Assembly: GCF_023650955.1 (NCBI RefSeq)
Contig: NZ_CP098039.1
Coordinates: 930,001-994,000, forward strand
DNA length: 64,000 nt
DNA from: Thermosynechococcus sp. HN-54
GTDB lineage: Bacteria > Cyanobacteriota > Cyanobacteriia > Thermosynechococcales > Thermosynechococcaceae
Reading direction: 5' to 3'
The notes under the pieces were generated by a model that was not told the origin of the DNA, made no database searches, and was given only the letters and a program-made list of their open reading frames with translations. This document shows, one piece after another, positions 33,339 to 37,317 of this stretch. The position numbers and the translations under genes were made by a program. Within the stretch, counting starts at the first letter, position 1. Each line of letters opens with the position of its first letter.

Positions 33339-34406
33339 ATGAAGCGACTGGTTTCGATTGGTTTTTTGGTGTTTATTCCTCTCTCCATCGCTGCTGAGAA
33401 ATTGGAATGGGGGGCACTTGCGGTCTTTATCTTGGCTGCTCTCGCCATTGTGCCTTTAGCGATTTGGTTGAGCACAGCAACAGAGGAGGTAGCCCTTGCC
33501 ACTGGACCCACCATTGGGGGTCTCTTGAATGCCCTTTTTGGCAATGCAACAGAACTCATTATTGCCATTGTGGCGCTGCAAGCGGGTTTAGTGGATATTG
33601 TCAAAGCCAGTATTACGGGAACCCTGATGGCAAACCTTTTGCTAGTGATGGGGTTATCCATGCTGTTAGGGGGCATTCGCTACAAGGAGCAATCCTTTGC
33701 CCCAGTGGTGGCGCGGGTGAATGCTTCCTCGATGACAGTGGCGATCGCTGCCATTCTTTTACCGGCGATGGTGATTTACACTTCCAATAGTGTGCCGCAA
33801 GCAGCTATTTCCAAAATGTCAGTCGTGGCCGCGATCATTTTGATTCTGGTCTATGGGCTAACGTTACTCTTTTCTTTGAAAACCCACAGCTATCTTTACG
33901 ACGTCAGTCAGGTGGAGCTAGCGGACGAAGAGGGACACCACGAAAAGCCCAACTTGCCCCTGTGGATCACGGTGCTGATGATAGCCACACTTGGGGTGGC
34001 CTTTGAATCAGAAATTTTTGTCGGTGCCGTTGAGGCAGCAACGGAGGGGCTGGGTCTGACACCCCTTTTTACTGGAGTCATCCTCTTGCCATTGGTGGGG
34101 GGAGCAGCAGAGTATGTGACCGCTGTGGGGGTTGCCCTGAAAAACAACATGGATTTGTCGGTGTCTATTGCCCTTGGTTCCTCGCTCTTGGTGGCGCTCT
34201 TGGTGGCACCGGTGCTGGTGCTTATTGGCCAGTTGATTGGTCAACCCATGGATCTAAACTTTAGTCTATTTGAGGTGGTGACCGTCATTATTGCTGTGGT
34301 CATTGCCAATGTGATTAGTCTCGATGGCCGCTCGAACTGGCTAGAGGGGGCACTGCTGTTGGCGACCTACGGGATTTTGGGCACGGCCTTTTTCTTCCAC
34401 ACTTAG
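33339..34406 (+). CDS. cax: Calcium/proton exchanger
   Basis: 355 residues with about 11 membrane helices in two homologous halves. The CAX signature repeats carry the ion-binding acid: GGLLNALFGNATELIIAIVAL in the first half and GGAAEYVTAVGVALKN in the second. An acidic loop (ELADEEGHHEKPN, about 190-205) joins the halves. It should export cytosolic Ca2+ in exchange for H+. It stands alone, and its stop overlaps the convergent transglutaminase gene by 4 nt. Confidence 0.93.
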   Translation: MKRLVSIGFLVFIPLSIAAEKLEWGALAVFILAALAIVPLAIWLSTATEEVALATGPTIGGLLNALFGNATELIIAIVALQAGLVDIVKASITGTLMANLLLVMGLSMLLGGIRYKEQSFAPVVARVNASSMTVAIAAILLPAMVIYTSNSVPQAAISKMSVVAAIILILVYGLTLLFSLKTHSYLYDVSQVELADEEGHHEKPNLPLWITVLMIATLGVAFESEIFVGAVEAATEGLGLTPLFTGVILLPLVGGAAEYVTAVGVALKNNMDLSVSIALGSSLLVALLVAPVLVLIGQLIGQPMDLNFSLFEVVTVIIAVVIANVISLDGRSNWLEGALLLATYGILGTAFFFHT

Positions 34407-35248
34407 GCGAGTCGCTGAATTTGCAGTTGGTAGGTCATCGTTGAGGTGACTCCTTGACCCCGCAGTGTCCCTTGAATTGGGGCTGTATCTGCTGCCTCTG
34501 CTGCGGCCACAAGGGCAATGTGGCGATCGCTCACTGCTAAGCCATGGGTCGGGTCATAACCCCGCCAGCCAGCTCCCGGTAAATACACTTCAACCCACGC
34601 ATGGAGATGTCGTTCAGGATTATCCAAGTCTCCTTCCTGATAGCCACTGACAAACCGTGCTGCTAAACCCACAGCCCGACAGGCATGGATAAACAACACC
34701 GCCGTATCCCGACAGGAACCCATTTGGTTAGCCCAAGTCACACAGGGAGGCCAAGGGGCACCAGTTTCGCGAATCTGGTGCTGACAGGTTCGGTAAATTT
34801 TGTTATTGAGATCACTGAGAAATGTGAGGACACTGCCATCGCCCTTGGCTAACGTTGTCCACGCCAGTTCATAGGCCACAGGATCCACTGGCGCCGAGAG
34901 ATAGGGATGCAAACTGGTCGCTAGCCGCTGCGGATAGTTAAAAGGGAGTGTGGTTGCCCACGAGTCAAGCAAATAGTTAAAGGGATTGTCACAATAGGTT
35001 TCTACTTCAGACGTGACTTGAATCATCAGGGAGGTGGTGGGCTGTGGTGACCACCAGTAGCGCTGAATGTGATTGCCATAGACATCGAGAACCGTACTTT
35101 GGCCTTGGGGTGTCGGTAAAATCTGTATGGAGAGCGATCGCAGGCGTTGGTGGCCATCACTGCGCGGGATCAACCGCAGATCGTGGGAAGCAAGGGCAAC
35201 CGGGTCACTGTAGGTGTAAGTGGTTTGGTGGCAGATGCGGTATTCCAT
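34403..35248 (-). CDS. Transglutaminase-like family protein
   Basis: 281 residues. The N-terminal beta domain (YRICHQTTYTYSDPVALASHDLRL is the family-typical opening) is followed by the Cys protease-like core. The triad can be read as Cys in MGSCRDTAVLFIHACR, His in LHAWVEVYLPG and Asp in GYDPTHGLAV. This bacterial group often sits with alpha-E and circularly permuted ATP-grasp genes, but those are not present here. It may be a peptidase or amide-forming enzyme; substrate unknown. No signal peptide. Confidence 0.9.
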   Translation of the reverse strand: MEYRICHQTTYTYSDPVALASHDLRLIPRSDGHQRLRSLSIQILPTPQGQSTVLDVYGNHIQRYWWSPQPTTSLMIQVTSEVETYCDNPFNYLLDSWATTLPFNYPQRLATSLHPYLSAPVDPVAYELAWTTLAKGDGSVLTFLSDLNNKIYRTCQHQIRETGAPWPPCVTWANQMGSCRDTAVLFIHACRAVGLAARFVSGYQEGDLDNPERHLHAWVEVYLPGAGWRGYDPTHGLAVSDRHIALVAAAEAADTAPIQGTLRGQGVTSTMTYQLQIQRLA

Positions 35249-35353
35249 TCTAATGGGTTAAAAAATCAGTATTTCTACGGGTTGACTTTATCATTTCTTG
35301 GCAGTAGCTTCATGCTATTCCTCACACTCTTCGCATAGAATTTGGTAACAATT

Positions 35354-36391
35354 ATGATTCCATTCTTGTTTCTTGGAGCAGCGATTGCTGGTTTAGTCGG
35401 TATAGAGGCTGCTGCCGACGGCTTGCGCAAACAGAAAGAAGCGAAAGAAAAACGTGAAACCGCTAAAAAACGCTACGAATCTGCTAAAGAATGCTATGAA
35501 TCTGCCTAAAGTCGCTATCACTCTAAGAAAGCACATGTCAAGTATGCCGAAGATCAAACTGAAACGCTATACAAAGATTTGCGAAAATACATCTTGGAAC
35601 GTATCTTGGAACGTACAGAAGGTACAGTGAGCGGTTTTTTGAGGCTTACTGAGGAATTGAAACAAAAGTATTCACTCTCTGATCTAGAGCTTGGTGAAGT
35701 AATGTTACGTGCTCTGGAGCTTCGGGAGGTAGGATTTGAGGGGCTGAATAAGTACCCGCAAACGGTGGACGCAGATATTAATCCAGAGACAGTTCTCGGA
35801 GGCATTTTACTAGGTGGTAGTGCAGGAGGTATAGCCGGTGAATTAGCTGGTGGTTTGCTACTAGGAGGTGTTGTTGGAGGTGCTGTTATTGGTTCTATCC
35901 TTGTAGGACTTAGTCTATCAGCAGAAGGAGAAAAAGCTCTCACTGAAGCAGAAAAGAAACTCACCAGAGCAAAAGAATATGTTGCAGAAATAGATGAAAA
36001 AATCACCACGATGGCTGCTTACATCAGATACCTAAAAGACGGTGTTCAACGACGGATTCAAGAGCTAGAGTCAGTTCTCAAGAATCTTGATCAGCGTTGT
36101 CAGAGAGCGCTCAACGAGTTAGAAGTGGCTATTAAACAAGGGTTCGATATCCAGCGGGAAGAGGATGTTCAGAAGTTTCAGAAAGCATTGCTTTTAGTCA
36201 AAGCACTACGAGAGATTATCCGCACACCGCTCCTTGATCGCGACGGCAACTTGAATCCTGAACACACACGATTGCTAGCAGCCTATCGGCAGAGCGCAAG
36301 TCTCTCTAGGAGGAGAAAGTGTTTTACAATCAACTTTCGGAAAAAGCTCTCCTCAGTGGAGCAACAGGAGCAACAATCGTTCTCAATTTAG
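35354..36391 (+). pseudogene. Coiled-coil / glycine-zipper protein with in-frame stop
   Basis: The frame from ATG 35354 gives MIPFLFLGAAIAGLVGIEAA and a Lys/Glu-rich helix, then meets TAA at 35507-35509 (codon 52). It continues in the same frame for another 294 codons. The repeats around the stop (KRYESAKECYESA, then stop, SRYHSKK) suggest it arose from a Lys AAA codon. The rest is a coiled coil, then a glycine-rich membrane-like segment (about 150-195, LGGILLGGSAGG...GGVVGGAVIG), then another coiled coil (200-290). Translation could restart at TTG 35579. The family is unrecognised; the coil-Gly zipper-coil layout resembles helical membrane-inserting proteins. AT-rich, HIP1-free and probably acquired. 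Confidence 0.65.
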
Positions 36392-36771
36392 TCCATTCTC
36401 TTGTTGAAAGCTACCAGCAGGAAATCACGAACCAAGTTCGAGAGCAGGAAATTACGAAGCAGGTCCAAGAACAAGAGATTACGAAGGGCCAGCAAATCGA
36501 GGCACGGAAGCAAGAAAGGCTTGCAGAGATCAACGCGACACAAGAGCTTCTCATCGGCCACCTCAATCCTTCCTTTGAGGAGCGGGCGCAGGCTTTTCAA
36601 AAATTCTTTGAGCAGATCGATGGAGCAATTACCCGTGGAGACAATACTCAACTGGCGCTGCTTCTGGATGCTGTGGTCAAATACGCTCAGACAAGTCCCT
36701 TTAGCCAGTTAGCTGACTTGGCACAGGTACAGGCCAATTTGAGCAATCCTAACCACGTTTGGGAGTTGTAG
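36319..36771 (+). CDS. Hypothetical protein, second gene of the AT-rich cassette
   Basis: 150 residues from a GTG with AGGAGGAGAAA just upstream, a very strong ribosome site. Its first 25 codons overlap the end of the preceding frame by 73 nt. A short hydrophobic segment (ALLSGATGATIVLNLVHSL) is followed by three 9-residue repeats (EITNQVREQ, EITKQVQEQ, EITKGQQIE) in a charged helix, then a helical C-domain (NPSFEERAQAFQKFFEQIDG...). Not recognised. The pairing with an upstream coil-glycine-zipper protein suggests a two-part module. It is convergent to the Yfr1 candidate. Confidence 0.65.
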   Translation: MFYNQLSEKALLSGATGATIVLNLVHSLVESYQQEITNQVREQEITKQVQEQEITKGQQIEARKQERLAEINATQELLIGHLNPSFEERAQAFQKFFEQIDGAITRGDNTQLALLLDAVVKYAQTSPFSQLADLAQVQANLSNPNHVWEL

Positions 36772-36782
36772 CCCTCCACCCA

Positions 36783-36858
36783 ATAAGGAAGCCGCCCGAA
36801 CGATTGACTGTCCAGGCGGGGTGTGGTGTGAGGAGTGAACGGAAACGTGCGTCTCCGC
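36783..36858 (-). ncRNA. yfr1: Yfr1 small RNA
   Basis: On the minus strand the region reads as the conserved cyanobacterial Yfr1 design. A 5' hairpin covers 36857-36840 (7-bp stem, GCAC loop). It is followed by an unpaired stretch holding the ultraconserved ACTCCTCACACC (36836-36825). Last comes a 10-bp terminator hairpin (36819-36792, G-U pairs inside) and a pyrimidine-rich tail. The predicted length is about 75 nt. A TACAAT -10 box sits at 36871-36866. Yfr1 regulates outer-membrane porin mRNAs by pairing through this motif in marine picocyanobacteria. Ends are estimated, not mapped. Confidence 0.87.
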
Positions 36859-36865
36859 TATTTCT

Positions 36866-36871
36866 ATTGTA
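36866..36871 (-). promoter_or_regulatory. -10 element of Yfr1
   Basis: TACAAT on the minus strand, ending 7-8 nt before the predicted 5' hairpin, which is the expected distance to a start site. The -35 region (about 36888-36893) shows no clear TTGACA. Confidence 0.6.
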
Positions 36872-37011
36872 GGGGACAGTTTCCAAATTGCCATAAGTAA
36901 ATGGCGCAAAAAGATCAAATCCTTTGCACCCCAGCGTCTATTGCCCTCAACAGCAAAAAGAGCCAGAAGCAACTCCTGACTCCTCTAAAATCGGTGTTTG
37001 TCAAAAACAGC

Positions 37012-37317
37012 CTAGCGGGTAGTGGCTGCCATTTTCTCTTCTGCAAGTTCCCTTAGGCTAGGGAATAAAAAGTGATTTTCTTCAACGTACTGCGCACCAA
37101 ATAAGCCTTTTTCTGCCCAGAAGTAGCGATCGGTGGTGTGCTCATTCCGCTTAACAAGGAGTAAAGCGGGCGGGGTGATCCCCTTGGCCTGAATGAATTT
37201 TCGTGCCGCTGTCACAGGTTTATCTTCGCCACTTTCGATGCTATATTGAGGTACGCACTCAAGAATTTTGCGTCCTTCGAGACGCCGCCGGCTCTTCCGC
37301 TTCCGTCTTCTGGCCAA
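37012..37317 (-). CDS. DUF3155 protein
   Basis: 101 residues starting ARRRKRKSRRRLEGRKILE, a very basic N-terminus typical of DUF3155, followed by a compact domain with FIQAKGITPPALLLVKRNEH and FWAEKGLFGAQYVEENHFLF. The start is a TTG with GGAGG 9 nt upstream. The family is nearly universal in cyanobacteria and unstudied; the Arg/Lys cluster would fit nucleic-acid contact, which is inference. It is transcribed in the same direction as Yfr1 and lies upstream of it. Confidence 0.88.
   Translation of the reverse strand: MARRRKRKSRRRLEGRKILECVPQYSIESGEDKPVTAARKFIQAKGITPPALLLVKRNEHTTDRYFWAEKGLFGAQYVEENHFLFPSLRELAEEKMAATTR

Follow-up and report, generated by a model that had tools for sequence, protein, structure and literature searches.

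A small RNA gene, yfr1, lies on the minus strand of the window (the whole 64-kb stretch of DNA analysed here), downstream of a gene for a DUF3155 protein and convergent to an AT-rich gene pair, beyond which a transglutaminase-like gene is found (Table 1). The first-pass annotation, a reading of the raw sequence, had found a genuine small RNA and placed it correctly. The -10 box, the 5' hairpin, the unpaired 12-nt motif and the 10-bp terminator hairpin were all recovered where it had placed them on the minus strand, and the 3' end of the RNA does face the last gene of the pair. A weak -35-like hexamer is found 17 nt upstream of the -10 box.

Table 1. Features at the yfr1 locus and the candidate target gene (window positions unless a genome handle is given).
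Feature	Position	Strand	Basis or remark
Yfr1, whole covariance-model match	36789..36858	-	likely transcript ~36859 to ~36783
-10 box TACAAT	36866..36871	-	pattern scan; found independently of the fold
Upstream promoter box TTTTGCGCC-ATTTACTTATGGCAATTTGG, including weak -35-like ATGGCA	36872..36912	-	near-invariant in 11 genomes
5' hairpin, 9 bp	36838..36859	-	RNAfold
Ultraconserved ACUCCUCACACC / 12-mer ACTCCTCACACC, unpaired linker	36825..36836	-	fold, motif search
Terminator hairpin, 10 bp	36792..36819	-	RNAfold and pattern scan; tail CTTCCTTATT
DUF3155 protein gene, upstream of yfr1	37012..37317	-	PF11352, E 2.8e-51
Second gene of pair	36319..36771	+	~20 bp separate its stop from the Yfr1 terminator stem (3' end)
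First gene of pair	35354..36391	+	in-frame TAA at 35507-35509, absent from relatives
Transglutaminase-like gene, beyond the pair	34403..35248	-	PF08379 and PF01841
LmeA-like gene	G000 1518584-1519330	-	outside the window; loci L050, L098, L104

Yfr1 is a small regulatory RNA of nearly all cyanobacteria. The covariance-model search proposed in the first-pass annotation bears out its identification: in a cmscan of the 64-kb window against Rfam, the Yfr1 model (RF01116) was matched over its full length (positions 1-59) and scored 49.3 bits against a gathering score of 38, and this was the sole Rfam match over any cut-off. E-values were 9.5e-7 for the window and 9.7e-9 for the genome. Within the 2.71-Mb genome a single copy exceeds the cut-off; a better Yfr1 elsewhere was searched for and none was found, the runner-up reaching 17.2 bits. 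In the RNAfold structure an open linker of 18 nt containing ACUCCUCACACC separates the 9-bp from the 10-bp hairpin, and the fold energy of -28.8 kcal/mol compares with a mean of -16.9 for shuffled sequences (z = -4.6; none of 200 shuffles as good). The exact 12-mer ACTCCTCACACC occurs once in the window, and sequences that differ from it at one or two positions are no commoner than expected by chance. Yfr1 is defined by an unpaired linker of 16-20 nt with ACUCCUCACAC between two stem-loops, and the family trait is an abundant transcript of 54-69 nt (PMC2190773). The linker and stem-loops of the window copy agree with this definition, and the genome with the family rule of one copy per genome; the two hairpins, the unpaired ACUCCUCACACC and a promoter of its own are likewise common to Yfr1 of other cyanobacteria. 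We regard the element as confirmed to be an ordinary, bona fide Yfr1.

Exactly one Yfr1 above the cut-off was found in 38 of 39 relatives. The RNA barely varies across the 11 Thermosynechococcus genomes, and its ACUCCUCACACC not at all. The -10 box is also kept in all 11 (as TAAAAT in G001, G003 and G005). The promoter box upstream of it stays near-invariant despite differing neighbour genes, two of the 11 genomes having wholly or partly different neighbours, and its TATGGCAATT persists in the nearest other genus (G012, locus L021). The alignment of G002 to the window covers only ~143 bp around yfr1, and beyond a unit of ~125 bp the sequence is wholly different. The 30-40 bp conserved upstream of the -10 box exceed the needs of a core promoter, and a site for a regulator may be located there.

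Outside the genus yfr1 occupies a different address. Of ten yfr1 loci in the family's other genera, the nine with clearly readable ORFs show guaB, yfr1 and trxA in this order and orientation, and the tenth has guaB upstream. The window copy, in contrast to this guaB-yfr1-trxA arrangement of other cyanobacteria, has neither guaB upstream nor trxA downstream. Such a neighbourhood is not required of Yfr1, T. elongatus and others being known exceptions (Voss et al. 2007, PMC2190773). Nine genomes of the genus share the order DUF3155, yfr1, transglutaminase, with the convergent pair between the last two either present or absent; the DUF3155 gene adjoins yfr1 in nine of the ten other genus genomes and is 97-100% identical there. 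G010 combines the DUF3155 gene and yfr1 with a convergent prepilin-peptidase-like gene, and G002 has the same prepilin-peptidase-like gene but a transporter permease-like gene upstream of yfr1 (both names are from our own reading of the ORFs). In the transglutaminase gene tree G002 and G010 stand together outside the rest (98% support), which, along with their differing neighbours, indicates that yfr1 has had its neighbours replaced on either flank, on different occasions. The comparison of the locus across Thermosynechococcus, suggested by the first-pass annotation, yields a relocated yfr1 with variable neighbours. In this genus yfr1 has left the ancestral guaB-trxA site, carrying ~125 bp of promoter and gene. 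Promoter and RNA travel together as one compact unit, amid neighbours that have been rearranged, gained and lost, and this speaks for a Yfr1 that does not require any given neighbour.

Two observations concern the transglutaminase-like gene itself. Where the pair is missing in G004 (L038) and G008 (L042), its start codon follows the yfr1 terminator by ~15-25 bp; this leaves no room for a promoter of its own, so the gene may be transcribed there by read-through from yfr1. In G006 (L040, 1-623) the gene beside yfr1 seems to be split over several frames.

The unusual convergent address has been in print since 2007 for T. elongatus BP-1, and the yfr1 finding, correct as it is, is to this extent largely known. 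Table 2 of Voss et al. 2007 (PMC2190773) lists the T. elongatus locus as tlr1779-> yfr1-> <-tll1780, and Yfr1 was detected in BP-1 by Northern blot in the same study. Among our genomes, G005 carries a plus-strand yfr1 at 1,862,773; the DUF3155 gene precedes it, and the second gene of the pair converges on it. We infer that G005 is T. elongatus BP-1, and the gene order at yfr1 agrees. The DUF3155 gene of the window is probably the equivalent of tlr1779, and tll1780 is most likely a relative of the second gene of the pair. BP-1 thus has the same RNA, the same orientation of the upstream gene and the same convergent downstream gene. As judged from G005, it differs from the window in being another species (flanks ~85-88% identical in DNA), in a second pair gene with 55% protein identity and in the first gene, which is interrupted in the window.

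The convergent pair had been described as AT-rich and probably transferred. Its AT-richness stands (45.6% GC against 52.8% for the window), whereas a recent private acquisition does not: the pair or its remains lie beside yfr1 in six of the nine genomes with the common neighbourhood. Since five other genomes have the pair, or what is left of it, at this site, a recent transfer into this strain alone is rejected. It is near full length in the window genome, G007, G009 and G005, reduced to a 3' remnant of the second gene in G001 and G003, and absent from G004, G008 and G006; G010 has a related pair at another site, adjoining a DnaJ-domain gene. The in-frame stop in the first gene of the window copy is possibly an assembly error. 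Protein identity of the second gene to its relatives is 55-60%, against mostly ~86-100% for the flanking genes. The flanking-DNA tree joins G006 to G009 and G001/G003 to G005, each at 100%, and its deeper nodes are weak (35-72%). On the simplest history the ancestor of the clade would have had the pair, which was later lost at least twice and partly deleted once. The gene tree likewise favours one old arrival with repeated loss and fast divergence; separate arrivals at this position are a less likely alternative. Integration directed to the 3' end of yfr1 was considered and rejected: the stretches compared held no direct or inverted repeats of at least 6 bp between the two ends of the pair, the pair contains no integrase, and nothing points to site-specific insertion.

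As to what the pair encodes, the intact first gene of G010 (L080) matches the candidate phage-defence model PDC-M09A of PADLOC with an E-value of 8.1e-30. The fragment in the window, with its premature in-frame stop, matches the same model weakly (E 1.2e-4). No model gave a convincing match to the second gene. Its relatives were found in 16 of the 194 cyanobacterial genomes sampled, as well as on a single plasmid, from Leptolyngbya; a search for the first protein in phages returned none. The window segment 35354-36771 thus holds a pair apparently related to the candidate defence protein PDC-M09A and decaying at the yfr1 site across the genus.

Three other readings of the locus deserve attention. 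Chance hairpins combined with a chance 12-mer, and thus no gene at all, might be considered, as the 12-mer is short and ACTCCTCACAC is found four times in the genome, three of them unrelated to yfr1. The covariance-model score, the z-score, the single best match in the genome and the strict conservation of both RNA and promoter across 11 genomes all speak against this reading; conservation and the covariance-model match together refute it, and its probability is practically nil. None of the three unrelated copies is a further Yfr1 or Yfr10 gene. One, just downstream of a trxA-like gene, is coding (apparently thiS-like) and conserved in most genomes of the genus; another is the complement of the start region of the LmeA-like gene; the third has no conserved context. 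The Yfr1-like ATTCCTCACACT upstream of the pair (35317-35328) has two mismatches and is at chance level, and in viral contigs two matches to a 16-mer were found, neither in a Yfr1 context. An RNA of the Yfr10 type, which has the same motif in a different structure, would account for the motif, since this is common to Yfr10 (PMC6778093), and for a position that does not adjoin trxA. It is nevertheless extremely improbable, because the full Yfr1 model is matched from 1 to 59 with both hairpins and standard spacing, and no better Yfr1 was found in the genome.

The remaining alternative is functional and starts from the bona fide Yfr1. Messenger RNA of the pair would run into yfr1 as antisense RNA and lower or tune Yfr1, by which a defence-like pair would affect the Yfr1 regulon. 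A pattern scan found no plus-strand terminator-like site in the short gap between the second gene and yfr1, the nearest downstream one being weak and located at 37018-37030, so that read-through onto Yfr1 is physically possible. The same convergence is seen in G007, G009 and G005, and an artificial full antisense RNA reduced Yfr1 function in Nostoc (PMC6974561). Against this stands the Northern detection of Yfr1 in BP-1 with apparently the same layout (PMC2190773). Moreover, the pair is broken in the window and lost or deleted in five of the nine clade genomes while yfr1 is unchanged, which argues that Yfr1 is independent of the pair. We consider antisense control by the pair very unlikely, and it is likewise very unlikely that switching on the pair would lower Yfr1 and thereby release Yfr1-repressed envelope genes.

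A single-copy, functional yfr1 that was relocated as a unit and is passively convergent with its neighbours explains the locus as a whole, and we hold this explanation with high confidence. One point against it is the interrupted U-tract of the terminator (CUUCCUUAUU). The gene's own promoter would drive transcription of a minus-strand RNA of ~70-77 nt. Having moved from the guaB-trxA site as a ~125 bp unit of promoter and RNA, yfr1 lies in this clade between the DUF3155 and transglutaminase genes, its 3' end facing a fast-decaying, defence-like pair. This convergence most likely arose passively, from the positions at which the rearrangement and the pair happened to settle, and the pair itself would be functionally neutral for Yfr1.

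According to published work, the conserved motif of Yfr1 pairs with mRNAs, for the most part where translation starts, and most of these mRNAs serve envelope and peptidoglycan functions (PMC6974561). Yfr1 is sequestered by Yfr2 (PMC6778093), a family reported in Thermosynechococcus (PMC2662882). By comparison with Prochlorococcus and Nostoc, the unpaired ACUCCUCACACC most likely pairs here with translation starts of mRNAs, many of them for envelope proteins, and would mostly repress them, and Yfr2 would sequester the RNA.

One candidate for such a target was found outside the window. The sequence GTGTGAGGAG occurs at seven places in the genome, and just one of these lies directly upstream of the start of a recognisable gene. 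This gene is LmeA-like (PF11209, E 4.6e-31; formerly DUF2993), and GTGTGAGGAGT, located 4 nt before its ATG, is perfectly complementary to Yfr1. In the collection of papers searched, none links Yfr1 with DUF2993. In the readable genomes from other genera of the family the site was not seen. As a control, the longest such complement to the Yfr1 linker was 8 nt (three cases) in 55 ORFs of the window and 6 nt in 107 ORFs of related loci. All 11 genomes of the genus, in comparison, have a stretch of 8-12 nt ahead of the LmeA-like start (in the other ten within ~25 nt of it) that is perfectly complementary to the linker, a conservation which is inflated by the relatedness of these genomes. We tentatively propose the LmeA-like envelope gene, on the grounds of this complementarity, as a possible target of Yfr1, which offers one testable Yfr1 target in a manipulable thermophile. 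In G002 and G010 the predicted pairing is in a shifted register, GTGGTGTGAG.
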